Positions 21,367 to 38,375 of a DNA stretch of 64,000 bases are shown in pieces (position 1 is the first letter of the stretch; every line of letters begins with the position of its first letter). The stretch is from the NCBI RefSeq assembly GCF_018343775.1, contig NZ_CP074349.1, positions 5,012,001 to 5,076,000 on the forward strand, given 5' to 3'. The notes beneath the pieces were generated by a model. That model saw only the letters and a list, made by a program, of their open reading frames with translations. It had not been told where the DNA came from and searched no databases. The DNA is from Pseudomonas cichorii. Lineage in GTDB: Bacteria > Pseudomonadota > Gammaproteobacteria > Pseudomonadales > Pseudomonadaceae. The position numbers and the translations under genes were made by a program.

Positions 21367-22215
21367 ATGCCGAATTTACGACTCGCCGACCTGACAGCCG
21401 AAATAGAAGCCAATGTGCGGCGCGCATTGCTCGAAGACGTCGGCAGTGGCGACATCACCGCTCAACTGATCCCCGAAGAGCGGCTGGCCAAGGCCACCAT
21501 CATTTCTCGCGACGAAGCCGTGATCGCAGGTGTGGCATGGGTCGACACGGTTTTTCGTCAGCTCGACCCTCGGGTTGCCGTGCACTGGCAAGTGACCGAT
21601 GGCGACCGGGTCAGCCCCAATCAGGCGCTGTTCCATCTGGAAGGTCCGGCCCGCTCGCTGCTGACCGGCGAGCGCAGTGCGCTCAACTTTCTGCAACTGC
21701 TGTCTGGCGTTGCCACCCGTGCGCAGCACTATGCCGACATGGTGAGCGACACTCAGGTCAAGCTGCTCGATACCCGCAAGACCCTGCCCGGCCTGCGCCT
21801 GGCGCAGAAATATGCCGTGACCTGTGGCGGTTGCCACAACCATCGCATCGGCCTGCATGATGCCTTCCTGATCAAGGAAAACCACATTGCTGCCTGTGGC
21901 GGCATTGCCCAGGCCGTTGCCGCCGCGCACAAGATCGCCCCCGGCAAACCTGTGGAAGTCGAAGTGGAAAGCCTGAGCGAACTCAAGCAGGCGCTCGAAG
22001 CCGGTGCCGACATCATCATGCTCGACGAATTGAGCCTGGATGACATGCGTGAGGCCGTGCGCCTGACCGCTGGACGCGCCAAGCTCGAAGCCAGCGGCGG
22101 TATCAATGACGACACCTTGCGGGTGATTGCCGAAACCGGCGTGGACTATATCTCCATTGGCGCGATGACCAAGGATGTGAAAGCGGTGGACCTGTCCATG
22201 CGCTTGAGCATCTGA
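21367..22215 (+). CDS. nadC: Nicotinate-nucleotide pyrophosphorylase (carboxylating)
   Basis: Quinolinate phosphoribosyltransferase: quinolinate plus PRPP gives nicotinate mononucleotide, CO2 and PPi in de novo NAD synthesis. The 282-residue protein has the NadC signatures [14 protein letters not shown] near residue 22, [12 protein letters not shown] near 137, and [21 protein letters not shown] near 157, and ends with the alpha/beta barrel IEASGGI-type motif, here [13 protein letters not shown]. The frame is open 19 codons upstream, but the ATG at 21367 follows GGAG. The next gene starts 34 bases after its stop, so read-through into the accessory ter block is possible. Confidence 0.97.
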
Positions 22216-22249: not shown

Positions 22250-23344
22250 TTGGAACAATGGTTTGTAGTGAATGCGGGCAAGCAGCTCGGCCCCATGGAC
22301 GCAGCGGCGGCTCGCCTCATTGCGCGTGAAGCGCCGGGCGCATGGTGCTGGAAGCAAGGCATGCCGGACTGGCAGCCGATCTACCAGGTGCAGGAAGTGC
22401 GGGCCATGAAGAAGGATGGCATCACGCCGTTTCCAGACCCGTCGCCCGACATGATCCAGCCACGGCCATCGGCCCTGCCCGCGCACGCAGCTCCAGCTCC
22501 AGCTCCAGCTCCAGCTCCAGCTCCAGCTCCAGCTCCAGCTATTAGACGACCTTCGTTTACGCCCGATCCAAACAGCTCAAGCGGTTTTGGCTCCGGGCAA
22601 GCCACCGATGGCGTGGACTTCAAGCTGTACGGCACCGAAACGCAGTTCGTCGAGCTTGAGCTGGACCGTGGCGAAAGCGCCGTGGCCGAGGCCGGCTCGA
22701 TGATGTACAAGACCTGCGACGTGCAGATGGAAACCATCTTTGGGGACGGCAGCAACCAGTCTTCAGGGCTGCTGGGTTCGCTCTTCGGCGCGGGCAAACG
22801 CATGCTCACAGGCGAAAGCCTGTTCACGACCGTGTTCTCGCAACAAGGCTCCGGCAAGGGTCGCGTCGCATTTGCAGCACCTTACCCTGGCACCATCCTG
22901 CCACTGCGCCTGCGCGACTTCGGCGGCAAACTGATCTGCCAGAAGGACAGCTTTCTGGCAGGTGCCAAAGGTGTGTCCATCGGCATTCAATTCCAGAAGA
23001 AAATCCTCACCGGCCTGTTTGGCGGCGAAGGCTTTGTGCTGCAAAAGCTCGAAGGCGACGGCTGGGTGTTCGTTCACATGGGCGGCACCGTTCGCAAGAT
23101 CGAACTGGCGGCGGGTGAATCCCTGGATGTAGACACCGGCTGCCTCGCAGCCATGACTCAGGGCGTCGATTACGACATCCGCATGGTGGGCGGCATCAAA
23201 TCCATGCTGTTCGGCGGCGAAGGTGTGTTCTTCGCCAGACTGACCGGCCCTGGCACGGTATGGCTGCAAAGCCTGCCCTTCTCGCGCCTGGCCGGGCGCA
23301 TGCTGGCGGCCAGCCCGGCGGGAGTGGCACGAAGCGAGCGCTGA
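22250..23344 (+). CDS. GYF-like domain plus TIGR00266/AIM24-family protein of the ter block
   Basis: 364 residues with three parts. The N-terminal GYF_2-type (DUF4339-like) module (about 1-55) reads MEQWFVVNAGKQLGPMD...PDWQPIYQV. A Pro-Ala linker (about 80-97) is encoded by the hexamer tandem repeat. A TIGR00266/AIM24 beta-sandwich (about 120-355) has FVELELDRGESAVAEAGSM, the Gly-rich SLFGAGKRMLTGESLF, and VSIGIQFQKKILTGLFGGEGF. The protein is cytoplasmic; family members occur in tellurium/stress loci, but their biochemical role is unknown. The start is a TTG at 22250, nine bases behind GAGGAG; the nearby ATG is out of frame. It precedes the VWA gene by 45 bases and is probably co-transcribed with it. 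Confidence 0.8.
   Translation: MEQWFVVNAGKQLGPMDAAAARLIAREAPGAWCWKQGMPDWQPIYQVQEVRAMKKDGITPFPDPSPDMIQPRPSALPAHAAPAPAPAPAPAPAPAPAIRRPSFTPDPNSSSGFGSGQATDGVDFKLYGTETQFVELELDRGESAVAEAGSMMYKTCDVQMETIFGDGSNQSSGLLGSLFGAGKRMLTGESLFTTVFSQQGSGKGRVAFAAPYPGTILPLRLRDFGGKLICQKDSFLAGAKGVSIGIQFQKKILTGLFGGEGFVLQKLEGDGWVFVHMGGTVRKIELAAGESLDVDTGCLAAMTQGVDYDIRMVGGIKSMLFGGEGVFFARLTGPGTVWLQSLPFSRLAGRMLAASPAGVARSER
22488..22540 (+). repeat. Hexamer tandem repeat (CAGCTC)n, about nine copies
   Basis: An uninterrupted run of CAGCTC within the preceding gene, encoding alternating Ala-Pro. It is in frame, so gain or loss of whole units would change only linker length. A comparable GGTGCA run lies in terA. Confidence 0.9.
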
Positions 23345-23389
23345 ACAATCCCGGGGCCGCCACTGGCCCCGAATGCACAAGGAAGAGAC

Positions 23390-24622
23390 ATGCTAATCAC
23401 TCAAGGCCAGCGAATCCCGCTTTCCAGCCTGATTCAAGGCTCGGACCTCACCCTGTCCATCGACATCAAGTCCGCCCATGTGATCGATTACGTCTGCTTC
23501 GGCGTTGATGCTCAGGGCAAGCTGTCGGATGACCGCTACATGATTTTCTTCAACCAGCCCGCCAGCCCTTGCAACAGCGTCAGGCAAGTCAACGGCGGCG
23601 ACTTTCAGATTGCCCTCGCCGGACTGCCTGCTTCCATAGACCGGCTGGTGTTCACGGCGTCCATCGATGGCGCCGGGGCAATGAGCGACATCCAGGCCAG
23701 CCACTTCAGCATCAAGGATGCCGGGCGCGAAGTCGCTCGCGGCGAGTTCTCTGGCGCAACCTTCGCTGCCGAAAAAGCCATCATGGTCGCCGACCTCTAT
23801 CGCAAGAACGGTGAATGGCGCATTGCATCCAACCTGCAGGGTTACAACGCTGGCCTGGATGCTCTGGTGGTGCACTTCGGTGGCGAAGTCGCCGAAGCTC
23901 CCGCACCAGCGCCAGCCAGAGTGTCGCTGGAGAAGAAAATCGCCGAAGCAGCGCCTCAGCTGGTCAGCCTGGCGAAAAAGGCTCAGGTCAGTCTGGAGAA
24001 AGCCAGACTGACCGACACCAAGGCTCGTGTCGGTCTGGTCTTGGATGCTTCCGGCTCCATGAACGCGCAATACAGCCGCGGCCATGTGCAGGAAGTGGTC
24101 AACCGCCTCATTCCTCTGGCGGTGCATTTCGATGATGACGGCGCACTGGACTGCTGGGCTTTCGGCGCCCGGCCTTGCCAGTTATCGTCGGTGTCGCTGA
24201 GCAACTTCAAGGACTTCATCCAGACCGACAACGGCGGCTGGAAGAACTGGGAGCTGGGCGCAAGGGTCAATGATGAGCCCAAGGCCATGCGCATGGTCAT
24301 TGATTACTACAAGCAATCAGGCGACCGGACACCGATCTACATCCTGTTCATCAGCGATGGCGGTGTTCATCAGGACAGGGAAATCACCCGGCTGATGACC
24401 GAAGCGGCGAAACTGCCGATCTTCTGGCAATTCGTCGGCCTGGGCGGACGCGGCTATGGAATCCTGGAAAAGCTCGACGACATGACCGGACGGGTTGTGG
24501 ATAACTGCAATTTCTTTGCTCTGGACCGACTGGATGAGGTTCCGGAAGAGAAGCTGTACGACTTGTTGATGGAAGAGTTCCCGGACTGGCTCAAGGCAGC
24601 CAAGGGTGCCGGGATTCTATAA
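23390..24622 (+). CDS. terF: TerF-type protein: TerD-like domain plus von Willebrand factor A domain
   Basis: A 410-residue cytoplasmic protein. The N-terminal half (about 1-165) is a diverged TerD domain: SDLTLSIDIKS, DYVCFGVDAQGKLSDDRYMIFFN and EKAIMVADLYRKNGEWRIAS. A short Ala-Pro linker (about 172-178) and a charged helix follow. The C-terminal VWA domain (about 213-400) has a MIDAS start DASGS near 218-222 and later ILFISDGGVHQDREI. VWA proteins of ter loci are thought to assemble TerD-family complexes on metal. It lies on the plus strand, converging on terE at the terminator 24695-24726. The symbol is by domain architecture. Confidence 0.88.
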   Translation: MLITQGQRIPLSSLIQGSDLTLSIDIKSAHVIDYVCFGVDAQGKLSDDRYMIFFNQPASPCNSVRQVNGGDFQIALAGLPASIDRLVFTASIDGAGAMSDIQASHFSIKDAGREVARGEFSGATFAAEKAIMVADLYRKNGEWRIASNLQGYNAGLDALVVHFGGEVAEAPAPAPARVSLEKKIAEAAPQLVSLAKKAQVSLEKARLTDTKARVGLVLDASGSMNAQYSRGHVQEVVNRLIPLAVHFDDDGALDCWAFGARPCQLSSVSLSNFKDFIQTDNGGWKNWELGARVNDEPKAMRMVIDYYKQSGDRTPIYILFISDGGVHQDREITRLMTEAAKLPIFWQFVGLGGRGYGILEKLDDMTGRVVDNCNFFALDRLDEVPEEKLYDLLMEEFPDWLKAAKGAGIL

Positions 24623-24638
24623 ACTTTCAGACAGCTCG

Positions 24639-24690
24639 TTGGAGCGAATTCATTCGCGAAGATGGCCTTTTCGCGAATGAATTCCCACAC
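24639..24690. repeat. REP-type inverted pair between terF and terE
   Basis: TTGGAGCGAATTCATTCGCG at 24640 is followed after a short spacer by an inverted copy, TTCGCGAATGAATTCCCAC. It is the same family as the elements at 5203, 17195 and 18680. Placement between convergent stops is typical for REPINs. Confidence 0.8.
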
Positions 24691-24694
24691 CAAT

Positions 24695-24726
24695 AAAAAA
24701 ACCCTGCCATCGCTGGCAGGGTTTTT
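24695..24726. terminator. Bidirectional rho-independent terminator shared by terF and terE
   Basis: A run of six A, the stem CCCTGCCA / TGGCAGGG with loop TCGC, then five T. An A-run on one side and a T-run on the other make it functional in both directions. It separates the convergent terF and terE ends. Confidence 0.9.
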
Positions 24727-24743
24727 CATGACGCTGACCGGGT

Positions 24744-25322
24744 TTAGCCGATCGATACGCCGTGTGCTTCTGCCAGAGGCTTCAAGCCGCCTGCGAAGCC
24801 TTGGCCGATGGCCTTGAACTTGAACTCGTCGCCATGACGATACAGCTCGCCGAAGATCATCGCGGTTTCAGTCGATGCGTCTTCCGACAGGTCGTAACGA
24901 GCGATTTCCTTGCCATCCGCCTTGTTCAGAACGCGGATGTAGGCGTTGGCCACTTGACCGAAGCTTTGCTTGCGCTCATCAGCCGAGTGGATGGTGACGC
25001 CGAAAACCAGCTTCTTCACAGCAGCGTTCAGGGTTGGCAGCTTGACCAGAACAGACTCGTCGTCGCCGTCGCCAGCGCCGGAGCGGTTGTCGCCCAGGTG
25101 CTCGACCGAACCGTCAGCCGACTTCTTGTTGTTGTAGAAAATGAAGCCGCTGTCATCCAGCACCTTGCCATTCTCGCCCACAACGAAAACGGAAGCGTCC
25201 AGATCGAATTCGGTGCCGTCGGTCACACGTGGGTCCCAGCCCAGGCCTACGGTGATTTCGGTCAGGCCTGGAGCCTCTTTGGACAGGGAAACGTTACCGC
25301 CTTTACTCAGACTTACAGCCAT
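24744..25322 (-). CDS. terE: TerD-family Ca2+-binding stress protein (TerE position)
   Basis: 192 residues, a single TerD domain with the complete motif set: VGLGWDPR near 25, [11 protein letters not shown] near 38-48, [15 protein letters not shown] near 75-89 (acidic Ca2+ site), and [27 protein letters not shown] near 150. TerD proteins are cytoplasmic Ca2+ binders in tellurite, phage and colicin resistance and other stress phenotypes. It is the last gene of terZABCDE by order. It is closely similar to the upstream neighbour, a likely tandem duplication; D versus E naming rests on position. Confidence 0.93.
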
Positions 25323-25361
25323 GTGCGTAATCCTTTTCTAAAGAAGTAATAAGGGTATGAA

Positions 25362-25937
25362 TCAGAAATTCATACCGTGAGCGTTGGCTACAGCCTTCAG
25401 GCCACCGGCATAACCCTGGCCTACGGCGCGGAATTTCCACTCACCGTTATTGCGATACAGCTCAGCGAAGATCATCGCGGTTTCGGTCGAAGCATCTTCG
25501 GCCAGATCGTAGCGAACGACTTCAGCGCCAGACTTCTCGTTCAGTACGCGGATGAAAGAACCGCCCACCTGACCGAAGTTCTGCTTGCGGCTGTCAGCGT
25601 CGTGAATGGTCACGACGAATACGATCTTATCAACATCGGCAGGCACGCGAGTCAGGTCGACCTTCACGACTTCATCATCACCATCGCCAGCGCCGGTACG
25701 GTTGTCACCGGCATGCTCCACGGAGCCATCGGCGCTCTTGAGCTGGTTGTAGAAAATGAAGTCGGCTTCGCTGCGGACTTTACCGTTGGCACCGAGCAGG
25801 AATGCGCTGGCGTCCAGGTCAAATTCCTGGCCGTCAGTGGCGCGCGGGTCCCAGCCCAGGCCGATCAATACATTGGTCAAGGTCGGGTCGGTTTTGGACA
25901 GCGAAAGGTTGCCACCTTTTTGCAGAGTCAAAGCCAT
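25362..25937 (-). CDS. terD: TerD-family Ca2+-binding stress protein (TerD)
   Basis: 191 residues, one TerD domain: [25 protein letters not shown] at about 25-48, [15 protein letters not shown] at about 75-89, [23 protein letters not shown] and [20 protein letters not shown]. All acidic Ca2+-site residues are kept. It follows terC by 27 bases and precedes its paralogue by 39 bases, with an AGGAG before the ATG. Part of the terZABCDE operon. Confidence 0.94.
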
Positions 25938-25964
25938 GATTCGTTTATCTCCTTTTTCCAGTGT

Positions 25965-26999
25965 TTACGCTTTTTCTTCAGCCGACTCGTCTTTTCCCGG
26001 GAAGAGCAGGCTAGCGACAATACCGATTACCAACACCACCATCACAACCAGCAGACTGGTGTTGGCGCTGATGCTGTATCCATGATGGAACAAGTGGTCA
26101 GTTGCGTTCAGGCCCAGCTTGATTGCGATGAAGAACAGCAGTGCGATAACCGCTTTCTCCAGGTGAACCAGGTAGCGCTTCAGGGCTTCAAGTACGAAGT
26201 ACAGGGTACGCAGGCCCAGGATCGCGAACAGCATGGCCGAGAATACGATCAGCGGCTCACGGCTCACGGCGATGATGGCCGGCACGGAGTCGAAGGCGAA
26301 CAGTACGTCGGAGATTTCAGCCACGACCAGACACAGGAACAGTGGGGTCGCAAAGATCGCGCCTTTGGCAGCCAGGGTGATGCCGCTGTTCTCAGGCTTC
26401 TTGATTTCTTCTTCCAGGACAGCGCGGCGTACGAAGAAGTTGTTGCCGTGCAGTTTTGGCCACACCGGGAACAGTTTCTTGGCGAAGCGATAGGCCATGT
26501 GCTGGGAGTAGTCGATTTCTTCGTCGTCGTTATCGCCAGCTCTGAGCATCATGATGGCAGTCCAGGCAACGATTACCGCAAACACCACTTCGACCCACGG
26601 GCCCAGAGCCAGAAGGCCTGTACCGATGGCGACGAAAATGCCGCGGAATACGATTGCGCCGATGATGCCCCAGTACAGAACGCGATGGCGCAGGCCATCA
26701 GGGATCTTGAACCAGGCGAACAAGGCCATGAACACGAAGAGGTTATCGACGCTCAGGACTTTTTCCAGTGCATAACCGGTTACGAACAGCGTGGCGACTT
26801 CAGAGCCGTGCTGAACGTACAGGAAACCGGCGAATGCCAGAGAGATTGCCACCCAGAAGATCGACCAGGCCGATGCCTGGGTCAATGTGATCGGCTTGTT
26901 TCCCCGGTGGGAAAACATGTCGACGGCCAGGGCCGAGATGGCCAGGCCAACGAAAACGGCCATGGTGAGTGGAGGGAAGCCAAGAGCGGTGCTTTCCAT
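25965..26999 (-). CDS. terC: TerC-family integral membrane protein
   Basis: 344 residues with about nine transmembrane helices. TerC signatures are present: GYALEKVLSVDNLFVF near residue 77-92 and SDVLFAFDSVPAI near 223, where the Asp/Glu residues form a likely metal path. An acidic loop (GDNDDEEIDYS) lies near 155. TerC anchors the Ter complex in the inner membrane, and the family is linked to Mn2+ export and metallation of exported proteins. It lies 29 bases behind terB; terD follows. Confidence 0.95.
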   Translation of the reverse strand: MESTALGFPPLTMAVFVGLAISALAVDMFSHRGNKPITLTQASAWSIFWVAISLAFAGFLYVQHGSEVATLFVTGYALEKVLSVDNLFVFMALFAWFKIPDGLRHRVLYWGIIGAIVFRGIFVAIGTGLLALGPWVEVVFAVIVAWTAIMMLRAGDNDDEEIDYSQHMAYRFAKKLFPVWPKLHGNNFFVRRAVLEEEIKKPENSGITLAAKGAIFATPLFLCLVVAEISDVLFAFDSVPAIIAVSREPLIVFSAMLFAILGLRTLYFVLEALKRYLVHLEKAVIALLFFIAIKLGLNATDHLFHHGYSISANTSLLVVMVVLVIGIVASLLFPGKDESAEEKA

Positions 27000-27028
27000 T
27001 TAACTGCGTTCCTCAAAAGGGTCAAAAA

Positions 27029-27478
27029 TTACAGGTCAAAGTCGGAAGGATTCAGGCCGAGTTCATTACAGATGGAGCGGCAGACAGCACGTTCCTTCTC
27101 GTCGAAGCTGCCATCTGCGCCACCGATGGCACAGCAGACGCGCACCAGAAGGCGGGCAGCATCTTCTTTTTTCTTGATCTTGCCGATGGTTTTCAGCGCT
27201 TCGGCGCGACCGATTTCGACATCGAAGTCGAATTTGGCGCATGCATCCTGAAAAGCCTGGATGACGTCTTTCATGTCAAAAACTTTCAGTTCCTGAGAGT
27301 TCTGAATGAAGCCGGCCATTTTCTGTTTTTCACTGGAGCTGATTTCGCCATCGGCTGCAGATACCAGGGCACAACCTGAAACCACTGCATCCATGAACTC
27401 ACGGTTCTTGAACTTCGAGACTTCGGAAGCAAGCTTGTCGCGAGCTGCTGTTGCGTTTGTTTTCAACCAGTCCAGCAT
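27029..27478 (-). CDS. terB: TerB-family metal-binding protein
   Basis: 149 residues, all helical, the usual TerB length. Two pseudo-repeats each carry an acidic loop: AADGEISSSE near 41-50 and GADGSFDEKE near 122-131. These are the likely metal-binding segments of the family. TerB interacts with TerC at the membrane in studied systems. It is third in terZABCDE, with 52 bases from terA. Confidence 0.94.
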   Translation of the reverse strand: MLDWLKTNATAARDKLASEVSKFKNREFMDAVVSGCALVSAADGEISSSEKQKMAGFIQNSQELKVFDMKDVIQAFQDACAKFDFDVEIGRAEALKTIGKIKKKEDAARLLVRVCCAIGGADGSFDEKERAVCRSICNELGLNPSDFDL

Positions 27479-27530
27479 TTCAATCCCCTACGAGGCAGCC
27501 AGGCCACCTCAGAAAAATCAATCGTGTTGT

Positions 27531-28715
27531 TTACTTGGAACCTGCGGCCCAGCGCATGCCCCAGCCATAGGCCTTGTCCATGTTGCTATGACCGTTGTGG
27601 AAATCCACACGACGGGTCACCTTGACGGCCCCGTTGTCGTTTTCCAGCAGAGCGATCGCACACATGCCCTGACGACCGCCTTCCTCGTTGAGGCGAACCT
27701 CGATAGGTGGCTGGCCCGGGGCGTGGATGGTGACAACACCGTCGGTTTCTTTCCAGTTCGGTGCGCCTTCATAAATGAATGCGTAAACCAGAATGCGGCG
27801 GATCTTGCCCCAGTGCGCGCCGTTGATATGCAACCACTCGCCGTCGCTGATGGAGCCGGTACGGTCATCGCCCATCAATTTGATGAAAGGCTCGGTGTTG
27901 AGCGATCCAAACGAATTGCCCAATGCCTGGACCGCGCCTTTGTAACCGTCCTGTAACTCGAACAGGCAGCCTACATCAAGGTCGATCGCATTGCTCTTCT
28001 TCATCGAGAAGAAGCCGCTGCTTTTGCTCTCACTGCGGCGGTTCCAGTTCAGGTTGACCCTGATTTCACCGAAACCGGCACTGGTTTTCTCCAGGCTGAC
28101 GGAAGCTCGTGTCTTGTCCAGCGTGATCTTGCTGAGACTGACAGTGGGCTTGGGCGCGGCGACTGGTGCAGGTGCAGGTGCAGGTGCAGGTGCAGGAGGC
28201 TGGGCCTCTGGCGCTGCGACTTCAACACCGAAGTTCTTCGCCAGAGGCTCAAGGCCACCGGCAAAGCCCTGGGCGACACAACGGAATTTCCAGGCGCCCT
28301 GACGCAGGTAGAACTCGCCCAGAATCAGCGCGGTTTCCTTCATGCCACTGGTAGGAATGGCCGCTTCGATTCCGCCGGTGACGGTCAGGGCAAGGTGCGA
28401 CACGCTGTCGAAGCTGGCCTTGTTTTCATAGATGGTTGCCGTGAGCGCGACCTTCTCGATAGCGGCATCCAGACGACCCGGATCAAGACTGAAGACAGCG
28501 CGGCCCGCTGACGCTTCCGTCAACTGCACCGCACCGCCACTCACACTCTTCTGACCGAAGAAACACATGTCGTGATCGCCACGGACCTTGCCTGCACTGG
28601 TCAGCAGAAACGCGGAGACATCGATGTCCGCGCCCGCTATAGGGGAATAGCTGACGTCGACCGTCAATGGGCCAGCAGCTACTGGCGCATTGGCGCCTGG
28701 GACAAGTTGAGTCAT
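27531..28715 (-). CDS. terA: TerA: TerD-like domain fused to a C-terminal TerA domain
   Basis: 394 residues. The N-terminal domain (about 1-170) is a diverged TerD fold (VDVSYSPIAGADIDVSAFLL, ETALILGEFYLRQGAWKFRCVAQGF). It is joined by an Ala-Pro linker (about 173-188) from a GGTGCA tandem repeat. The second domain (about 190-394) has IRVNLNWNRR, NAIDLDVGCLFEL, LMGDDRTGSISDGEWLHIN and VTRRVDFHNGHSNMDKAYGWGMRW, typical of TerA. The start overlaps the terZ stop (ATGA), indicating coupling. Confidence 0.93.
   Translation of the reverse strand: MTQLVPGANAPVAAGPLTVDVSYSPIAGADIDVSAFLLTSAGKVRGDHDMCFFGQKSVSGGAVQLTEASAGRAVFSLDPGRLDAAIEKVALTATIYENKASFDSVSHLALTVTGGIEAAIPTSGMKETALILGEFYLRQGAWKFRCVAQGFAGGLEPLAKNFGVEVAAPEAQPPAPAPAPAPAPVAAPKPTVSLSKITLDKTRASVSLEKTSAGFGEIRVNLNWNRRSESKSSGFFSMKKSNAIDLDVGCLFELQDGYKGAVQALGNSFGSLNTEPFIKLMGDDRTGSISDGEWLHINGAHWGKIRRILVYAFIYEGAPNWKETDGVVTIHAPGQPPIEVRLNEEGGRQGMCAIALLENDNGAVKVTRRVDFHNGHSNMDKAYGWGMRWAAGSK
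28165..28194 (+). repeat. Hexamer tandem repeat (GGTGCA)5 inside terA
   Basis: Five exact copies, encoding Ala-Pro dipeptides on the minus strand. It forms the flexible linker between the two TerA domains and is a likely length-variable site. Confidence 0.9.
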
Positions 28716-29305
28716 GCGCGTACTGCTCCGATGGCCAGGTCGACCAGATCGTCAGCGGTACGGCCATTGGTGGCCTGACCTACAGCGGTGAAATCCCAGC
28801 CGCTGGAGGTGCGCGACAGATAGGACATGACTACGCCTGTGTGCTGACCTTTTTCGGACAGATCGAAGCGACCCAGTTCGTTACGGGTGCCCAGATCGAC
28901 GATACGGCAGTAGGCATTGGCGACTTTTTCGAAGTTCTGGCCGGTGAACGAGTTGACCGTGAACACCAGATATTTCACGGTTGCCGGCAGTTTTTCCAGA
29001 TCGACGCTGATGTTTTCGTCATCGCCTGCGCCTTCACCGGTACGGTTGTCGCCGGAGTGATGAATGGCACCGTCACGCGATTGCAACTGGCGGAACCAGA
29101 CCAGGTCGAGAGGCTTCTTGTCGGCATCGAGCATGATGCAGGAGGCGTCCAGGTCGATATCCCCGCCACCGCCGCCCAGCAGCTTGCCGAAGAAACCGCT
29201 CGGCTTTTCAGGGTCCCATCCCAGCCCCATGCTGACTTTCTTAAGGCCTGTACCAGCGGTTTTCTCAAGCGAGATTGTCTGGTTTTTTGCCAAAGTGAGT
29301 GCCAT
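28712..29305 (-). CDS. terZ: TerZ, TerD-family protein, first gene of terZABCDE
   Basis: 197 residues with one TerD domain: VSMGLGWDPEKPSGF, DIDLDASCIML near 48-58, HHSGDNRTGEGAGDDE near 80-95, and FEKVANAYCRIVD. A Gly-rich insertion (LLGGGGG) precedes the first acidic motif. The frame has an ATG four codons earlier, but that ATG overlaps the GGAG serving the ATG at 29305, giving MALTLAKNQT. Its stop overlaps the terA start by 4 bases. A gap of 47 bases to the upstream HAD gene suggests one transcript with the biosynthetic module. Confidence 0.93.
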   Translation of the reverse strand: MALTLAKNQTISLEKTAGTGLKKVSMGLGWDPEKPSGFFGKLLGGGGGDIDLDASCIMLDADKKPLDLVWFRQLQSRDGAIHHSGDNRTGEGAGDDENISVDLEKLPATVKYLVFTVNSFTGQNFEKVANAYCRIVDLGTRNELGRFDLSEKGQHTGVVMSYLSRTSSGWDFTAVGQATNGRTADDLVDLAIGAVRA

Positions 29306-29352
29306 TTTTCGCTCCATGTGAACTACGGAATTCGGATAAAAGTGTTACAGCC

Positions 29353-30057
29353 TTACCGCGATGGGCCATCAATGCCATCCCGATTATGTAACTTGGCGTT
29401 AACGGGGCCTTTATAGCGGCCTCGACGCCACGCCGGATGGAACAAACGCCAGTGCGCATCCTGTGCTGCCGCGAGCAATTCATGGTCGCCACGCGTGTCC
29501 CCCCAGGCGCGTACCCGGAACTGCGAAAGTGGCCCGTAAACACCCTCAAGGCGCATCACCTTGGAGTCGCAGCGGCAGTTGCTGCCCTCGATCAGGCCGG
29601 TGAGCTTGCCGTCGATCACTTCCAGATTGGTGCCGATCAGTTCAACTTTCAGGCGATCTGCGAAAGGTTGCAGGACCATAGCAGGCGATGCTGAACATAG
29701 CGTGACAATGGCGCCCTTTTCGATTTCCGCCGCCACGGACTCCAGCGCCGCCGGACGCATCAGGCGCGCCCAGTACAGCTGGCAGAAGGCTTCGGCCTTC
29801 TGTTGCAGCCAGTCCACCTCAACGCCGGTCAGAAAGGCCTTGATCAGACGGCCCTTGAGCTCATCGCGGGTCACGCGCTTGGCAAGGTAGCCCAGGCTCG
29901 GCAGTACCAGCCGGGCCATACGAACGGAAAAAGCACGCTGCCCAAAAGCGAATTTTAGAAATGGGACAAAGCTGTCATGGCGGGTCAATGTCCCGTCAAA
30001 ATCGAACACCGCCAGCAGGCGCTGCTCCACTTCCACTTCAAGATCAGGCTCTATCAT
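29353..30057 (-). CDS. HAD-IB family phosphatase of the ter module
   Basis: 234 residues. HAD motif I is FDFDGTLTRHDSF (nucleophile Asp near residue 18), motif II is VTLCSASPAMV near 116, and a motif IV-type acidic site is WGDTRGDHELL near 190. The helical cap between motifs I and II resembles SerB-type (subfamily IB) enzymes. It probably removes a phosphate from a small molecule made by the neighbouring enzymes; the substrate is unknown. The ATG directly follows the stop of the CitE-like gene (TAA then ATG, no gap). It is the last gene of the biosynthetic part before terZ. Confidence 0.85.
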   Translation of the reverse strand: MIEPDLEVEVEQRLLAVFDFDGTLTRHDSFVPFLKFAFGQRAFSVRMARLVLPSLGYLAKRVTRDELKGRLIKAFLTGVEVDWLQQKAEAFCQLYWARLMRPAALESVAAEIEKGAIVTLCSASPAMVLQPFADRLKVELIGTNLEVIDGKLTGLIEGSNCRCDSKVMRLEGVYGPLSQFRVRAWGDTRGDHELLAAAQDAHWRLFHPAWRRGRYKGPVNAKLHNRDGIDGPSR

Positions 30058-31008
30058 TTAACTAACTGCCTCAGCGAGTCGAATGCTGGCATCCACGATC
30101 GAAGCGGGGGTCGGCAGGACTCCATGCCATTTGGCGCGCTCCATGATGTGGGTTGCCCATTTGTAATGAGTGGCCGGTTCACACATCGCATCGTTGTACT
30201 TGAACACCGCCGGAGCGACAGAGTTCAAAATCATCCGTGCGCAATTCAGGTCTTCCAGGCTCACACGAAACGCATTCTGAATGATATTGACCTGCGAGGG
30301 GTGGATTGCTGTCTTGCCCACCATACCGTTGGAGATATCCAGCGCCAGTTCCTGCTCCATGATGTCGGGAGTCGCCAATTGCTCAAAAACCGGTGCGGTC
30401 AGGGCAAACCCCTGGGAACCCATCACACCGGACAGCATCGGAATCACATAGCCCATGGGCGTGCCATACAGCGTCATGGCCGGATTGCGGCGCAGCCCCA
30501 GGCAGCCCATCAGATCGTTACCGCCAATGCGCAAGGCAATGATCCGCTCGCCCAGATTCACCTTGAGTGCCTGCCCCAGTTCGACCATGGCCGTCGGGTT
30601 GAACACCTCAGGCGTCTCCAGTGTAGGCATCAGGGCCAGCTCTGGATTGGTAACGGCATCCTCCCAGCTTGCAAGGCTTTGCAGCGAAAGCTTGGGGACA
30701 ACGAACCCATCGACGTGGGCCATCAGCGGCCAGTCATTGAGAATTTTCGCCATTGCCGCATCGCGAGGACGAACAAACAACAACGGGCCATTGACCGGCC
30801 GTCCGCCACGGTCCTGAATGCGTGTCAGCACATTGCGCAGGTTGACCAGCGCCGTCTCGACATCGATCAGCGCCACGGCGTCTTCCAGGCACACGACCAG
30901 AGAGCGCAGTTCGGGGATCTTTTCTGCGAATACCACATCGAGAATGTCGTCGCGGGTGGCAGGCATATAGAGCGTTGCACCCAAAGCATAAGGCGAAGGT
31001 ATGGCCAT
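30058..31008 (-). CDS. HpcH/HpaI aldolase / citrate lyase beta-like (CitE-type) enzyme
   Basis: 316 residues, a TIM-barrel lyase of the CitE/HpcH superfamily. It has the PATRDDILDVVF start, VVCLEDAV near 38-45 (acidic metal-proximal site), FVRPRD near 78 with the phosphate/CoA-type Arg, and GGNDLMGCLGLRR near 165. CitE enzymes cleave or form C-C bonds of CoA thioesters. Members in ter loci lack the rest of citrate lyase and are predicted to act in a nucleoside-like metabolite pathway. The ATG overlaps the upstream stop (TAATG). Function beyond the fold is inferred from context. Confidence 0.85.
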   Translation of the reverse strand: MAIPSPYALGATLYMPATRDDILDVVFAEKIPELRSLVVCLEDAVALIDVETALVNLRNVLTRIQDRGGRPVNGPLLFVRPRDAAMAKILNDWPLMAHVDGFVVPKLSLQSLASWEDAVTNPELALMPTLETPEVFNPTAMVELGQALKVNLGERIIALRIGGNDLMGCLGLRRNPAMTLYGTPMGYVIPMLSGVMGSQGFALTAPVFEQLATPDIMEQELALDISNGMVGKTAIHPSQVNIIQNAFRVSLEDLNCARMILNSVAPAVFKYNDAMCEPATHYKWATHIMERAKWHGVLPTPASIVDASIRLAEAVS

Positions 31009-32102
31009 TAGCTGAGACTCCGAATGATGGTTACCGCCCTATAAGGCCCCAGGGCATTTGCAGATTCTTCGACAGGGATGCCCGCTTTTTCAGTCAGGTG
31101 CATGAGCAGTTGCACATCGCTGTCAGTGGTATTGCGTACCAGCACATGATCGGGCACACGGCGCATGACGGCACGGGTAGCCTCGGCAATCCCCGGCTTC
31201 ACCCGGTTGAGATTGTTGATCCCGAACCGCCCGGCCAGAGTGTCGATCACTTCCCGGGCTGAACGTTTGAGCTCGATGCGCTGCTGCGGCGTCCAGGGTT
31301 GGGCTGCAACAACGCCCTGCAGATTGCGGCGCTGACTTTCGATTCGCTCGATGAACGAGCGAGTCACGTCGTGCCCTTGCAGGTGATCGTAAACGACACA
31401 CCCGTGTAATCCGCCATCAGCAGGCCATATGGAACGCGACACCAGACCTGACACCGTGGCCCCCAGAATACCGGACGGGATGACCCAGTCCTCGGAGGAC
31501 GCCGCCAGCCACGCACTGCCGCACGGGTCGGCCAGCACCACCAGACGCGGCTCTTCGGGAAACCGCGCATCGCCCGCCAGACTGCGTTTGATCTCCCCGG
31601 AAATCGCGCCCTTGCCGGTCCAGCCATCCACGAAAACAATGTTCTGCGCACCATGGGCCTGAATGATGGCCTCAAGCGCTACAGAGTCGATGCCACGGTC
31701 ACGAATAATGCTGATGCCATAGTGATGCGCTTCGCGGCCCAGTCCGATCAAGGACCGACGCAACAAGACACCCAATGGCAAACCGGCACGCACGAATGAC
31801 ACCAGAACGATCTCGCGCCCCTGGCACGCCTGATCGAGGGCCAGCGCCAAAGCCTGCACGTCGGTCGCCATGCGCAGACCATTCTGCATCAGCGCACGTT
31901 CGAACAAAGCGCCATGCGCATCGCCCGGAGCTGACTCCAGGCTGATCATTTCTGAATAATGCTTTTGCTTCGTCTGGATCAGACGCTCTTTTTCCTCGAC
32001 ATCGGTGGTGTCCATCTCGACGCCGCGCAGCAGAAAATGCACGTCATCCGCGAGATAGCTACCGCTGCCCACTGTATCGAGCCCGTGAACGGGATTACTC
32101 AT
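31008..32102 (-). CDS. StiP-type phosphoribosyltransferase-like protein of the ter module
   Basis: 364 residues. Databases name this family 'cysteine protease StiP', but the fold is phosphoribosyltransferase-like (PRTase_1, as I recall). Visible features are VLVSFVRAGLPLGVLLRR near 98-115, a PRPP-loop-like NIVFVDGWTGKGAISGEI near 152-170, and a conserved DPCGSAWLAAS near 190. A C-terminal region (from about 290) rich in basic residues may bind nucleic acid or partner proteins. A GTG three codons upstream is possible. The ATG at 32102 is preferred because it makes the same ATGAGTAA overlap with the preceding gene as the junction one gene upstream. Confidence 0.8.
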   Translation of the reverse strand: MSNPVHGLDTVGSGSYLADDVHFLLRGVEMDTTDVEEKERLIQTKQKHYSEMISLESAPGDAHGALFERALMQNGLRMATDVQALALALDQACQGREIVLVSFVRAGLPLGVLLRRSLIGLGREAHHYGISIIRDRGIDSVALEAIIQAHGAQNIVFVDGWTGKGAISGEIKRSLAGDARFPEEPRLVVLADPCGSAWLAASSEDWVIPSGILGATVSGLVSRSIWPADGGLHGCVVYDHLQGHDVTRSFIERIESQRRNLQGVVAAQPWTPQQRIELKRSAREVIDTLAGRFGINNLNRVKPGIAEATRAVMRRVPDHVLVRNTTDSDVQLLMHLTEKAGIPVEESANALGPYRAVTIIRSLS

Positions 32103-32853
32103 GCGCAGCACCGGCGAACATCTTCGCTAACTGGCTGCGGGCAGGCGTTGCCCACCAATGGCACTCGTCCATGAAGCCCAGATCAGTGATGCTGTCACCA
32201 AAGCCCAGCACCGGACGCTCGCCGTTGACGGCTCGGTCACGGCGCAGCCATTCCTGCACGGCATAGCGCTTGGCCAACCCGTTGGGCAGGAACGCCAGAT
32301 TATTGCCGTTGCCATGCACGTGCATGTCGTCGAGCAGGCCACGTGCCTGCACTTCGGCCAGAACGCGAGTCAGGATGCTGTCATCGCTTTCGTTGTGCTT
32401 GGTGACCACATAATGGAAAAGTTTCGCCTCCTCCACTACCCAGCCACGCAACGAAACGCCCATTTCCTGACCAATGGCCAAAGTTGCGGCGCTCAGCTCA
32501 TGCAAACGTCCCTGATAAGCGGCCAGGGTCTGTTTCATCTGTGCATTCCAGTCGCTGTCCAGGCGACCGGCAGCATCGAGCATCACGCCACCATGGGAGC
32601 AGATTGCGCCCGAGCTGAACGGCAACTTCACCCGGCTGTAAGCCTCGACGCTACGCGCCGTGACCGGCACCACATCGGAATGGGCCAGCAGCCAGTTCAC
32701 GAAGGATTTCTGCACATTGGTCATGTAGCCATTGGCATTGCCGGTGAGGTCGACGGTTGCCACATGCTTTTCGATACCGGGAGCCGTCTTGCGGGCGGTC
32801 TGGAACAGGGTGTCGTCCAGATCCACGAATATCAGCGGGCGTTCGTTACTCAT
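32095..32853 (-). CDS. HAD hydrolase (Cof/sucrose-phosphatase-like) of the ter module
   Basis: 252 residues. Motif I is FVDLDDTLFQTA (nucleophile Asp at about residue 11), motif II is VVPVTARSVEAYSRV, and the acidic motif IV is LGFGDSITDLGFMDE near 225. The large C2-type cap is compatible with sugar-phosphate phosphatases. The start at 32853 overlaps the upstream stop by 8 bases (ATGAGTAA). A likely dephosphorylation step in the ter metabolite pathway; the substrate is unknown. Confidence 0.84.
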   Translation of the reverse strand: MSNERPLIFVDLDDTLFQTARKTAPGIEKHVATVDLTGNANGYMTNVQKSFVNWLLAHSDVVPVTARSVEAYSRVKLPFSSGAICSHGGVMLDAAGRLDSDWNAQMKQTLAAYQGRLHELSAATLAIGQEMGVSLRGWVVEEAKLFHYVVTKHNESDDSILTRVLAEVQARGLLDDMHVHGNGNNLAFLPNGLAKRYAVQEWLRRDRAVNGERPVLGFGDSITDLGFMDECHWWATPARSQLAKMFAGAAHE

Positions 32854-33979
32854 CACAGATGACCTCGGCATTCAGCGCTTCGACCAGCTCGGCGGGCACA
32901 GCCTGCTGAGGGGTTTCGGTGCAGATCAGTACGCGATCGAACTGACCGGGCCGTACGTTGTAAAGAAAATTGGGAATCCCCAGGCCGTAGTTGTCGGAGA
33001 ACGACAAGGCATGATCGATGGCATGCCCCAGGGCAATCGGTGAACGGCTGGTGGAACTGAAATGCACGTCGGCACCGGCCTTTTCCAGACGCTCGGCCAA
33101 CAGGAACGGGCGCCAGACGAATTCGCTGGTGCCCACCACCAGAACACGCTCGCCCTTGGCGACCTGAATGTCGGGGGCCAGGGTGTCGAGTACCGAGCGA
33201 ACACCCAGACGTCCCCAGTCATTAGCGGTGACCAAAGGCCAGTCACCCATGGCGACGGTGCCGACTTCCGGCATGTCCGGCAGTGGCGCGGCCAGATCCT
33301 CGGCAAAGGAATAGGAACCCTGCAGCAAGGAAACCTGCTCGGCCACATCGCCCATGGTGGTGCTGACCGCACCGGCCGACCAGTCGGTCAGGACGCAGGT
33401 CACGACACGCTCGACCTTGCTCAGCCCGGCCTCGACCAGCGCCCGATAGAGGTTGATAAATGTCTTGCCGGTTGAGGCTTCGTCATCCACCAGCACCAGC
33501 GAACGAGCGCCCAGCATCATCTCGCGCAGCGCAGGGTCGGTGGGCAAGTGAATCAGGTGAGCACTGGCGTGGCTGTGTTCTTCCTCGAAACGGGCGAACA
33601 GCTCGGTGCCCGTCGGGTGGCGAGTACTGACCAGATACAGCGAATCCGGACGCGACTCGCTGTAGGCGCGATGCACACCGGCACCCAGCCCTACAGCCGT
33701 CTCGGCCATGCCGATGACCAGCACCGGGCCAGGAAGATCGGCCGGGATCTTGTAGGCAAGGTCCCGGAAGCTCTTGAGCATCACGCCCGGACGCACCGGG
33801 ATATGTCGCCCCAACACGCGGGAAACGAAGAGAAACGCCCGCTTGGGATTGCGTCGCTCGGCAAAGCCGAACAGGGAGTCCGGCGCGATGGTGGACGAGT
33901 CGACCATCACATCGAGACGACCACGAAGCAGATCAGCGCGAAGCCTTGTAGGGGTTGAAAGAGCTGAACTGCTGTCCAT
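32846..33979 (-). CDS. Phosphoribosyltransferase with C-terminal TRSP domain (PRTase_2 type)
   Basis: 377 residues. The N-terminal part is a PRTase-fold domain with the PRPP-binding loop SLVLVDDEASTGKTFINLYRAL near 158-178. The distal region (about 240-377) carries the TRSP-type domain, a family found only C-terminal to such PRTases, with VLVVGTSEFVWRPFLLAERLE and FSSTSRSPIALGHAIDHALSFSDNYG. The frame extends into the upstream gene, but the ATG at 33979 follows AGGA and removes that overlap. Predicted to attach or remove a ribose-phosphate on an unknown base. Confidence 0.84.
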   Translation of the reverse strand: MDSSSALSTPTRLRADLLRGRLDVMVDSSTIAPDSLFGFAERRNPKRAFLFVSRVLGRHIPVRPGVMLKSFRDLAYKIPADLPGPVLVIGMAETAVGLGAGVHRAYSESRPDSLYLVSTRHPTGTELFARFEEEHSHASAHLIHLPTDPALREMMLGARSLVLVDDEASTGKTFINLYRALVEAGLSKVERVVTCVLTDWSAGAVSTTMGDVAEQVSLLQGSYSFAEDLAAPLPDMPEVGTVAMGDWPLVTANDWGRLGVRSVLDTLAPDIQVAKGERVLVVGTSEFVWRPFLLAERLEKAGADVHFSSTSRSPIALGHAIDHALSFSDNYGLGIPNFLYNVRPGQFDRVLICTETPQQAVPAELVEALNAEVICDE

Positions 33980-34046
33980 CGATAGATTCCTGGTTAACGG
34001 GGCCAATGCCCCTTGCGCCTGCCCGTTTCCCGGAGGAAAGCGGTCG

Positions 34047-35183
34047 TTACGTGCGCGAGGCCTCAAGGAGCCAGAGCGCCGACTGGGCAGAGCGTGTAAT
34101 TTCAGTTGTGGTGTACGTCCTCTCAGGACGGGCATGGGATGCCGTTACGCGGCAGGCTTCCAGAAAAGACAGAAGCAATGCCGACTTCACCGCGAAATTC
34201 ATGTTCTGTGCATCCGGCACACTTGAGGTCACCATCCCGATAACCGCGCCACCGTTGTCGAACAGTGGACTGCCACTGGAGCCCGGCTGAATGGGCGCCG
34301 TGAACTGAAACAGGCTGGCATCGCTGTGCAAGCCGAACAGGCCGGATATCCCGCCCTGAGTCACTTGCAGGCTGCCGCCAGAAATAGAAGCCAGTGGATA
34401 ACCCAGCGCTACCACCGTATCGCCAGGCTCCGCGCCCGTGCCTTCACGGAACGTGACCGGTTTGAGCGGCGAAGCGCCTTGTACCCGCAGCAACGCGATG
34501 TCGTTTCGACGATCGACCACCACTGGCTCGACCTTGAAGCGCCCTTCCAGCGAACTGATATACAGCACGCTCATGTCTTCAATGACATGGGCACACGTCA
34601 TCACATGGGAAGGCCCGACCACAAACGCAGTGCCTGTCGCCGACTGATGATGACCGCCCGGAGAGTTGATGGAACTGCGCCGAGGGTGATGATCATTGAC
34701 CTCAAGGCCGATCTTGCGTCCAAACGCTGCCAGTCCGTAGGCAGAACCTTCATGCAGCGCTCGAAACTTCCATTGATCGTTGCGCTGGTAAAACTCACCG
34801 ATGATGATCGAAGCCTCACCGTTGTCCCGCAGATCTGCCTGGACTTCGATTTCCTTGTCGATCACCAGTCGCAAGCTGGAAATATCGCGAATTGGCCCGG
34901 TGGCGGCATAGACGTAAACCATCACCAGAACACGATCACTGCCAGCGGGCAGGCGATCCAGCTTGAGGGAACAACCGACACGCTCCGGCCCGTCGCTCCA
35001 CTCCATCCAGTCCTGCTCGCGATGCAGCAAGGCAGGATTGCCCTTGGGCTGACGTTTTTCGTCGACCGGCAGCAACGCTACCGCCACGTATTCGCCAAAT
35101 ACCGACGCCTTGCCGCTTTCCAGCAGCCACGTGCAATGTGCATTCGCAATAGCTGTATTTGCGCCCGGTGCCAGCAATTTCAT
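34047..35183 (-). CDS. TerD-domain / trypsin-like serine protease fusion
   Basis: 378 residues. The first 165 form a TerD-like domain (APGANTAIAN, ERVGCSLKLDRLPAGSDRVLVMVYV, ASIIIGEFYQRNDQWKFRALHEGSAYGL) in which the Ca2+-type DxDAS and GDNRTG motifs are degenerate. From about 195 a trypsin/HtrA-like protease follows with an intact triad: His in MTCAHVIED, Asp in RRNDIALLRV and Ser in IQPGSSGSPLFDNGGAVIG. No signal peptide, membrane segment or PDZ domain is visible, so it appears cytoplasmic. The ATG at 35183 follows GGAGG; an earlier in-frame start has no ribosome site. Second gene of the minus-strand array. Confidence 0.86.
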   Translation of the reverse strand: MKLLAPGANTAIANAHCTWLLESGKASVFGEYVAVALLPVDEKRQPKGNPALLHREQDWMEWSDGPERVGCSLKLDRLPAGSDRVLVMVYVYAATGPIRDISSLRLVIDKEIEVQADLRDNGEASIIIGEFYQRNDQWKFRALHEGSAYGLAAFGRKIGLEVNDHHPRRSSINSPGGHHQSATGTAFVVGPSHVMTCAHVIEDMSVLYISSLEGRFKVEPVVVDRRNDIALLRVQGASPLKPVTFREGTGAEPGDTVVALGYPLASISGGSLQVTQGGISGLFGLHSDASLFQFTAPIQPGSSGSPLFDNGGAVIGMVTSSVPDAQNMNFAVKSALLLSFLEACRVTASHARPERTYTTTEITRSAQSALWLLEASRT

Positions 35184-35235
35184 GCCCAATCCTCCCTGAT
35201 AAGAGCAAGGCAATAGCAAAAAACTATTATCCCGA

Positions 35236-36234
35236 TCAAACCGTAGCCAGTACAGCCACGGTGATGGCCTTGACCCGAATATTATCCCGCCAATGTGTTT
35301 CCGGTTCTTTCAGCCCAAGCCGCCGGGTCGCGAAAATGCCCGGCAGATTGATACCTGTTTCCCGCGTGTAACCAATACCGCCCGAGTAGCGCGGGTTGAT
35401 TTCCAGCAAGTGCGGCTTGCCATCGGCGTCGTCACGGGTCTGCACGTTGATCAGGCCGTCACAGCCAAAGTGCTCGGCGGCCTCCACGGCCAGCCGGACA
35501 GCCTCGCTGTCGCGCTCGAACGTCTGGTTCATGCCCTGCTTGCGGCGCCCGACGAAGGCCACCGCCTTGCCATGTTCACAGACCATATCCACCGAACACT
35601 CGCTGCCCGGCATATACGGCATGAGTAACATGGGCGGCCTGTCATCGGACTGGCGATAAGCGTTCAGGTACGCCTCGAAGCTGGTTTCCCGGGCATCGGG
35701 GTTGGCGAAGCAACGGAAGTCATCGACGCCTGCCTTGAAGCGCCAGAATCCATGCCCGAAAATCCCCACCGTCGGCTTGATACACACCTCTCCCGTGCGG
35801 GACAGGGTTTCGTAGGCGGCCTGCAACTCTTCGGTATTACTTGCGCTGATCCCCGGTATGCACGCCAGACCAGCCTGTTCGGCAGCGGCAGTGAAAAGGC
35901 TTTTGTCGTCTACATTGATAAAGGTCTGCATGCTGGTGCCGCCGGTGACCAGATCAAAACCCTCCGCCACGAAACGCTCACGATGCGCTTCATAAAAACT
36001 GCCGACACGCCCGGCAATAATGACTTTGACGCCCAGCTCGCGGGCCGTTTCGAGGACCCAGTCAATGCGCTCTGCGTTATTGCGCGGCTCCTGCAAGGCA
36101 ACGTCGGCCTGCCCGGTAATTTCCGAGCGATCCTGACGATGGGACGCGATAATCCGCACCGAGGCCGGCAACGCCTCACGCGCGCCCATGATGACTTCGC
36201 GCTGGCTGGACTGGCCTTCAAGGAACCAAATCAT
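35236..36234 (-). CDS. ATP-grasp ligase of the ter biosynthetic module
   Basis: 332 residues with an ATP-grasp fold. The ATP-binding Lys is in VCIKPTVGIFGHGFWRF near 145-160, a Gly-rich loop precedes VGRRKQGMN, and the metal-binding motif LLEINPRYSGGIGYT is near 290, with the acidic partner in GLINVQTRDD. Such enzymes join a carboxylate to an amine through an acyl-phosphate. It is the first gene of the minus-strand ter array, and its leader (36235-36356) should carry the promoter for all twelve following genes. The substrate is unknown. Confidence 0.87.
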   Translation of the reverse strand: MIWFLEGQSSQREVIMGAREALPASVRIIASHRQDRSEITGQADVALQEPRNNAERIDWVLETARELGVKVIIAGRVGSFYEAHRERFVAEGFDLVTGGTSMQTFINVDDKSLFTAAAEQAGLACIPGISASNTEELQAAYETLSRTGEVCIKPTVGIFGHGFWRFKAGVDDFRCFANPDARETSFEAYLNAYRQSDDRPPMLLMPYMPGSECSVDMVCEHGKAVAFVGRRKQGMNQTFERDSEAVRLAVEAAEHFGCDGLINVQTRDDADGKPHLLEINPRYSGGIGYTRETGINLPGIFATRRLGLKEPETHWRDNIRVKAITVAVLATV

Positions 36235-36356
36235 GTGACTCTCCAGAAAACAAAGCAGCGTTCTAAGCAGCTTTGACGAATTTTGTAATAACTGTTTTGC
36301 TTCAAAATGTTCGGATTAAGGCAAAGTCACGCCATTTTTCACTAGGGGACAATGAC

Positions 36357-38327: not shown

Positions 38328-38352
38328 TTGGAGACTCCAGACCTCCGATATC

Positions 38353-38375
38353 AAAAAAGGCGCCGAAGCGCCTTT
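38353..38375 (-). terminator. Rho-independent terminator after pilA
   Basis: On the minus strand AAAGGCGC pairs with GCGCCTTT across a TTCG tetraloop and is followed by a T-run. It lies 12 bases after the pilA stop and before the ligase gene, so pilin mRNA should exceed ligase mRNA, with the ligase made by read-through. Confidence 0.9.

Follow-up and report, generated by a model that had tools for sequence, protein, structure and literature searches.

A Ter supercluster beside nadC in Pseudomonas cichorii, with a TerD-trypsin protease and a linked DUF1523 gene

The window analysed here is the whole stretch of 64,000 nucleotides from Pseudomonas cichorii (contig NZ_CP074349.1 of GCF_018343775.1, positions 5,012,001 to 5,076,000; coordinates below count from its first letter). 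It carries at positions 22250–36234, between nadC and the pilin gene pilA, a block of 15 genes that, judging from its gene content, is a Ter supercluster of the known kind, i.e. a ter operon with biosynthetic genes. The data support that this block is accessory in the genus and inserted into a core locus; the clusters found at this site are consistent in sequence with one old insertion followed by inheritance. An earlier note on this DNA had described a complete terZABCDE, a TerF-type protein with a vWA domain, a GYF/TIGR00266 protein and a seven-gene module as contiguous; all the genes that it named are present, open and contiguous according to the ORFs and Pfam/NCBIfam matches, and the observation is real, correctly described and ordinary in kind.

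The Ter supercluster and its insertion beside nadC

Distribution was examined in 149 Pseudomonas genomes (codes G, the window genome being G000), carriers of the Ter C-C lyase being defined by a PF15617 match at E ≤ 4.4e-94. This lyase is found in 23 of them, at 25 loci; a second lyase match in G030, a fragment at a contig end (E 2e-39), was left out of the locus count, and the weak matches, which bring the total at E ≤ 1e-3 to 79 of the 149 genomes, were set aside as apparent general relatives. NadC and PilC were each found in 147 genomes. The gap between nadC and pilC was counted only where both lie on one contig less than 60 kb apart (68 genomes, 81 being left out); its median is 4.2 kb, it reaches at least 10 kb in 12 genomes and it contains the lyase in five (the window genome, G018, G056, G066 and G094), the remaining 20 Ter lyase loci being located elsewhere in the genomes. 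Among named nadC loci (codes L; the best 80 of 569), ter genes directly follow nadC in 10, which belong to P. cichorii, P. caricapapayae, P. viridiflava ICMP 19473, Pseudomonas sp. KUIN-1, P. cerasi, P. californiensis, P. congelans, Pseudomonas sp. v388, a metagenome-assembled genome and P. tremae. Within the same 80 loci, the nadC closest to that of the window is from P. cichorii (93%). The comparison of nadC-pilA intervals across the genus thus bears out the proposal of the earlier note that the block is an accessory insertion into a core locus, as it is not found at the nadC site in all Pseudomonas.

In an unrooted FastTree phylogeny of eight concatenated cluster proteins, a split with a support of 1.000 separates the 15 nadC-site tips from the 20 other loci (P. 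tremae appears twice, as L018 and L104). The nadC-site clade is found in the P. syringae/cichorii group. The clusters at this site form one clade, consistent with one old event, so that a recent insertion is not supported. The G+C content of the block (0.54–0.63 per kb) does not differ clearly from that of its flanks, so that composition is uninformative on its origin.

The genes are arranged in two runs that converge tail to tail. On the + strand, nadC (21310–22215; Pfam QRPTase_N/C), the left flanking core gene that lies outside the system, is followed by the genes of a GYF_2 + AIM24 (TIGR00266) protein (22250–23344; AIM24 3e-71) and of TerF, which combines a TerD domain with a vWA-TerF domain (23390–24622; PF10138 4e-82), where the run ends at 24622. 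On the − strand, 13 genes extend from the ATP-grasp gene (36234) to terE (24744), no overlap or gap between them exceeding about 70 bp, provided that the assigned starts are correct. The ter part of this run encodes TerZ, of the TerD family (28712–29317, start possibly 29305), and TerA, with an N-terminal TerD domain (27531–28715), both named from their position, then TerB (27029–27478; Pfam 4e-25), the integral membrane protein TerC (25965–26999; Pfam 3e-40), TerD (25362–25937), which is a sequence relative of the solved 2kxt/2kxv and 3ibz, and TerE, a member of the TerD family that retains the acidic motifs (24744–25322). The TerD-domain Pfam matches of TerD, TerE, TerZ and TerA range from 8e-87 to 5e-32. 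Locus content elsewhere was assessed by tblastn with all block proteins at the nadC-site loci and by comparison of the block proteins with the 16–20 kb taken around each of the other 20 ter loci: the GYF_2 + AIM24 protein was matched at all five nadC-site loci of the genus sample and had no match within the DNA taken around the 20 others, and TerF had no match at the nadC-site locus of G094, nor at three of the 10 named ter-bearing nadC loci.

Some Pfam names of the block families refer to the Ter operon. The Ter stress systems for which Anantharaman, Iyer and Aravind (2012) described a biosynthetic cluster also include, as far as citing papers describe them, terZABCDE, the TerF vWA protein, StiP + PELOTA, PRTase_2 + TRSP, the C-C lyase, HADs and ATPgrasp_Ter; the arrangement with TerD-trypsin and DUF1523 differs from these systems as portrayed in passages of citing papers, one of which (PMC11167607) touches ter there only by citing the 2012 paper. 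On a Pseudomonas megaplasmid (NZ_CP133095.1), the genes between ATP-grasp and the last TerD gene, TerD-trypsin included, are ordered as in the window, but this locus is plasmid-borne, its vWA gene lies about 2.8 kb past the last TerD gene and no gene is annotated as DUF1523 within the 33 kb shown. Among the matches listed, Pseudomonas plasmid lyases (four rows) are 67–76% identical to that of the window and Pseudomonas plasmid TerD-trypsin proteins (full-length rows) 53–62%; the Pseudomonas megaplasmid pTTS12 (NZ_CP009975.1) carries a TerD-trypsin match (row H112). The ter locus of the IncHI2 plasmid NZ_MT560064.1 (Klebsiella pneumoniae) shares terZ, the TerA-like, TerB, TerC, TerD, TerE-like and vWA genes, as well as ATP-grasp, PRTase, StiP and C-C lyase genes, with a hypothetical protein at the HAD position. 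It differs by its enzyme genes, which are divergent from terZ, by its TerW, TerY-type and phosphatase/kinase genes and, unlike the window block, by having no annotated TerD-trypsin. None of the 15 block genes is a TerW or TerY gene (no search covered the remainder of the genome) and the run is co-directional, unlike that of this enterobacterial (IncHI2) sub-type.

Enzyme genes, TerD-trypsin and DUF1523

The seven genes that stand before terZ are co-directional with it. They encode, in order, an ATP-grasp ligase, first gene of the run (35236–36234; PF15632 (ATPgrasp_Ter) 3e-43), the TerD-trypsin protein (34047–35183, start 35183 placed by homologues), a PRTase_2 + TRSP protein (32846–33979; PF15609 1e-58, PF12500 5e-20; start inferred, as the ORF opens at 34135), a HAD-IIB-like hydrolase (32095–32871; TIGR01484 1e-5, under the model cut-off, and without Pfam match), a StiP + PELOTA_1 protein (31008–32111; PF11202 3e-89, PF15608 3e-25), a C-C bond lyase with a TIM-barrel fold (30058–31008; PF15617 3e-100) and a HAD-IB family phosphatase (29353–30057; Pfam 2e-26, TIGR01490). 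The earlier note had taken all seven for an enzyme module; the genes are indeed there, but the one at 34047–35183 encodes a TerD domain joined to a trypsin-like protease and no biosynthetic enzyme.

At the sequence level, the catalytic motifs of the enzymes are intact. In alignments made per family (13 to 25 sequences, matches with less than 75% coverage or with a stop being excluded), the motif residues of the HAD-IB phosphatase are invariant in 22 sequences and those of the HAD-IIB-like hydrolase in 13, while the VDGWTGKG stretch of StiP and residues D165, D166, E167, T170 and G171 of PRTase_2 are each invariant in 25 of 25. The catalytic roles of these motifs are presumably those usual in the families, and StiP is a putative phosphoribosyltransferase (PRTase). 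The enzyme genes and terZABCDE are neighbouring and co-directional in 24 of the 25 Pseudomonas loci. The module looks rare outside the genus, PELOTA_1 being found in six of 274 gammaproteobacterial genomes (window included).

The TerD-trypsin protein combines an N-terminal half with a TerD fold and a trypsin/HtrA-like serine protease, whose triad (H200, D229 and S304, alignment numbering) is invariant in 30 of 30 sequences, 29 of which were chosen from 120 listed homologues (at least 475 found, 7,997 candidates scored). Its Foldseek listing is filled by the protease domain, and of the 50 matches listed by VIA-align 2 a single one concerns the TerD half. In an alignment of six sequences, this half lacks the DLDAS and DNRTG-GDDE acidic motifs, which we take to be metal-binding; it is probably TerA-like and metal-blind. 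Compared with HtrA/DegS, the protein has an N-terminal TerD domain and no PDZ match in Pfam. When it was used as a query (E ≤ 1e-12), 139 plasmid records were retrieved, none under an enterobacterial name; as a chromosomal or contig match from Enterobacillus tribolii exists (P0113, 56%), the distribution of TerD-trypsin is not entirely confined.

The gene divergent from the ATP-grasp gene encodes a DUF1523 protein (36357–36905, + strand; PF07509 2e-60), which is present at all five nadC-site loci examined. In the genus sample it occurs in 14 genomes, all of them among the 23 that carry the lyase (hypergeometric 5e-14, relatedness uncorrected), and 12 of its 15 full-length copies lie on the lyase contig within about 20 kb. 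Because of its presence at the five nadC-site loci and its linkage to Ter elsewhere in the genus, the Ter unit probably extends beyond 36234 to include DUF1523. The block thus lies between nadC and pilA as the earlier note stated, but its right limit probably has to be moved and its right neighbours are DUF1523, a gene for a Wzy_C ligase, TfpO-like by position (36912–38354, − strand; Pfam Wzy_C 1e-15), and then pilA itself (38387–38776, − strand; Pfam Pilin/N_methyl), the last two belonging to the pilin locus. Two long helices are predicted around the conserved domain of DUF1523 and are likely transmembrane, although the structure model is poor.

If DUF1523 starts at 36357, it shares with the ATP-grasp gene an intergenic region of about 120 bp, in which a stretch of 56 bp (36277–36332) shows 0–2 differences per 30 bases in the five nadC-site loci. 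Among 23 upstream regions compared, these five have the stretch and it was not found upstream of the 18 other ter operons; a conserved operator common to all ter operons was thus looked for without success, the stretch being specific to nadC-site loci. A sigma-70 scan gave no promoter in this region, where matches are fewer than in shuffles.

Other islands and a tRNA-Thr gene in the nadC-pilA interval

The earlier note had found no integrase, tRNA or flanking repeat. This is true of the window, which has no tRNA and no direct repeat flanking the block and whose block genes include no integrase, but in many relatives a tRNA-Thr(CGU) gene occupies the site. ARAGORN detected this gene in 12 of 20 stretches of DNA, the majority of which surround nadC and pil genes, and it lies downstream of nadC in 53 of the 80 named loci, with its 3′ end towards nadC in all 53. 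None of these is one of the 10 ter-bearing loci, whose 10 kb stops short of the pil genes; 17 loci have neither the tRNA nor ter, and in three of these 17 the DNA downstream is shorter than 1.3 kb. The window genome has 61 tRNAs, the threonine ones being only Thr-GGU and Thr-UGU; judged by this set, its lineage has lost tRNA-Thr(CGU), so that the reading of ACG would fall to tRNA-Thr(UGU). G018, G094 and G056 (a draft of about 510 contigs) gave no match to the tRNA-Thr(CGU) sequence of G066.

G066 retains tRNA-Thr(CGU) beside pilA, with an integrase gene adjoining it; the 3′ end of this tRNA recurs as a 22-nt copy about 0.1 kb to the right of DUF1523 (chance expectation about 2e-7 in 30 kb). 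In G004, fragments matching tRNA positions 18–42 and 43–66 are found at opposite far ends of an island (L028:884-6992 and L029:11408-11432) that carries its own tRNA-Thr(CGU) and seems, from these fragments, to have interrupted the former tRNA-Thr gene between positions 42 and 43. In G013, an integrase lies next to tRNA-Thr and the island holds restriction-like genes, and the interval of G022 contains exopolysaccharide genes. With the island of G079 described below, this variety of islands indicates that the nadC-pilA interval repeatedly takes accessory DNA. An exact search for second copies of the local tRNA in 11 genomes gave 22 nt in G066 and 15 nt in G146 and G079; eight (G004, G013, G022, G080, G043, G044, G050 and G020) have no copy of at least 14 nt, so that most islands lack a clean att pair.

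Two sets of genes were noticed when 20 selected ORFs of these islands were scanned with Pfam. Near nadC (L028:1245-6474), the G004 island contains ORFs of 475, 616 and 681 aa that directly follow one another and match no Pfam family at E ≤ 1e-5; at a guess they are a recombinase trio. The nadC-tRNA-Thr interval of G079 (L024:3322-6432) holds a 1037-aa metallophosphoesterase + STAND NTPase protein, possibly a defence gene.

In P. aeruginosa, pilin alleles are variable between pilB and tRNA-Thr according to the part of PMC2841157 concerned, and integration at a tRNA-Thr is described at PA5160.1 of PAO1 in a passage of PMC4739549. A search of a limited literature library found no description of nadC-tRNA-Thr-pilA as an island site. 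The tRNA-Thr of PA5160.1 is presumably not the one that adjoins pilA. The site resembles the P. aeruginosa core defence hotspots cDHS1 and cDHS2, as presented in passages of PMC10250203, in having variable cargo between conserved genes beside an RNA gene. Its identity with these hotspots was rejected, as the flanks given there (tRNA-Pro or tmRNA) differ from nadC/tRNA-Thr/pilA.

Further along the window, a single − strand ORF of 5206 aa (48321–63941), read by eye as RTX-like glycine/aspartate repeats, probably encodes a giant secreted or surface protein; upstream of it, a gene for a 502-aa protein that by eye resembles Sel1 repeats (46690–48198, + strand) sits in a low-G+C stretch (0.46).

Proposed mode of action and rival explanations

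The published parts consulted document tellurite resistance. In Escherichia coli, terCD (or terCE) is the minimal resistance unit, its growth cost being relieved by terA or terZ (PMC8779313, in part), and Klebsiella terZ-F suffices for resistance in strain MG1655 (PMC8115787, in part). As terCD or terZ-F alone confers resistance, a tellurite assay is ill suited to testing the enzyme module. When KT2440 received the whole of pTTS12, its minimal inhibitory concentration rose from 12.5 to 100, in the units printed in the passage of PMC9537497. For P. syringae, a passage of PMC11256456 identifies the tellurite determinant as tmp and mentions phage genes that resemble terC; the nadC-site ter locus is not discussed in the relevant passages. 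The metabolite and stress function of the Ter enzymes, evoked by the earlier note, is a published proposal: a jumbo-phage paper (PMC7824862, relevant part) has Ter PRTases and HADs making a signal nucleotide, TerB/TerD sensing and TerC/TerF acting at the membrane, and the chemistry and purpose of the enzymes are given as predictions in the passages of PMC7824862 and PMC8115787.

The following model, for which the chances appear about even, can be drawn from the anatomy of the block, the conserved catalytic motifs, the single clade at the site, the variability of this site and the observed linkage: a Pseudomonas-type Ter supercluster, inserted in an ancestor on the nadC side and inherited, would provide a metal and envelope stress response with a small-molecule branch, a protease arm and a DUF1523 partner. 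The insertion would have taken place at the pilA/tRNA-Thr(CGU) site, on its nadC side, in an ancestor of the P. syringae/cichorii group, and the block would have been inherited, the tRNA being lost later in some descendants. Membrane TerC, together with metal-binding TerD, TerE and TerZ, TerB and TerF, would buffer metal and envelope damage. The ATP-grasp ligase, two phosphoribosyltransferase-type proteins, the C-C lyase and two HAD phosphatases would make a nucleotide- or nucleoside-like small molecule that may signal to the Ter complex or ligate metal in it. The TerA-like, probably metal-blind TerD domain would dock TerD-trypsin on Ter proteins, its HtrA-like protease would be activated by the stress signal and DUF1523 would be a membrane partner of the complex. 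All these functional steps are inferred from anatomy and literature. A narrower version, in which the system has a so far unrecognised executive arm and a TerA-derived metal-blind domain brings the HtrA-like protease to the Ter membrane complex under the gating of the Ter metabolite, with DUF1523 as envelope partner, is speculative and judged unlikely.

Several observations weigh against the proposed response and its inheritance. L107, whose nadC is 90% identical, has no ter genes, whereas L100 (88%) has them; therefore, losses or a more complex history are possible. The PRTase reading of StiP stays putative, as no solved relative could be found by sequence and the hhalign comparison with PRTase_2, at 0.5% on shallow alignments, is uninformative. 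The components are not strictly kept, ATP-grasp having no match in two and TerD-trypsin in three of the 25 Pseudomonas ter loci, and the ter and enzyme genes of G126 are in opposite directions. Three of the 15 full-length DUF1523 copies (G116, G130 and G132) are far off or on another contig; of the two gammaproteobacterial genomes among 274 that carry DUF1523 (the window genome and G400), G400 has no TerD match, so that DUF1523 has another context outside Pseudomonas, and the DUF1523 model (pLDDT 54) is too poor for structure search. Finally, the enzyme branch may serve something other than tellurite resistance.

A doubtful but possible alternative is that terZABCDE(F) only protects against metals and metalloids, the enzyme module and the protease forming a pathway of their own that travels with it through linkage. 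It agrees with the minimal tellurite units cited above and with the orientation of the enzyme genes, opposite to terZ in the IncHI2A plasmid as in G126, but it accounts poorly for co-directional neighbours in 24 of 25 loci and for two proteins of the set, TerF and TerD-trypsin, being TerD-domain fusions. An anti-phage system, in which the enzymes would make an alarm nucleotide on infection and TerD-trypsin would be the effector protease, is quite improbable. The trypsin domain resembles proteases of PADLOC defence models (RT-Protease_XI 5e-19; Avs1b and LmuA weaker), trypsin-like proteases activate nucleases or pro-nucleases in Hachiman and AVAST (PMC12799240, in part), the Ter PRTases and HADs are described as making a threat signal (passage of PMC7824862) and other islands at the site hold restriction-like and STAND genes. 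However, the domain matches the HtrA and MarP families equally strongly (NCBIfam) and its match thus does not point to defence; the nine other block proteins were without PADLOC match (10 of the 15 block genes being given); and no block gene matched a nuclease family in Pfam, which weakens the Hachiman/AVAST parallel. The absence of TerD-trypsin from 50,697 phage records is neutral in this respect.

That the block is part of a still mobile element integrated at tRNA-Thr is most improbable. The tRNA-Thr(CGU) found between nadC and pilA in relatives and the integrase island of G066, with its 22-nt copy beside DUF1523, would fit such an element, but that copy is outside the block, between DUF1523 and the integrase island, the block genes include no integrase, the window has no tRNA or flanking repeat and a single clade occupies a single site; a recent tRNA-island origin was rejected on the same grounds.

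The C-C lyase is found at E ≤ 1e-60 in 2,488 plasmid records (130 from Pseudomonas, most enterobacterial), although the purpose of the Ter enzyme genes is only predicted. The sequence comparisons single out TerD-trypsin and DUF1523, both linked to the cluster, as candidate parts of the system that deserve testing. In the Pseudomonas version all enzyme genes stand in line in one run, together with a protease whose triad is intact and a membrane protein linked to them, so that deleting genes one at a time can tell the metal and enzyme branches apart. As a landmark for Pseudomonas accessory islands, the nadC/tRNA-Thr/pilA interval is usable. If the narrower protease-arm reading is true, the system would be a stress-gated proteolytic switch and not a resistance determinant.

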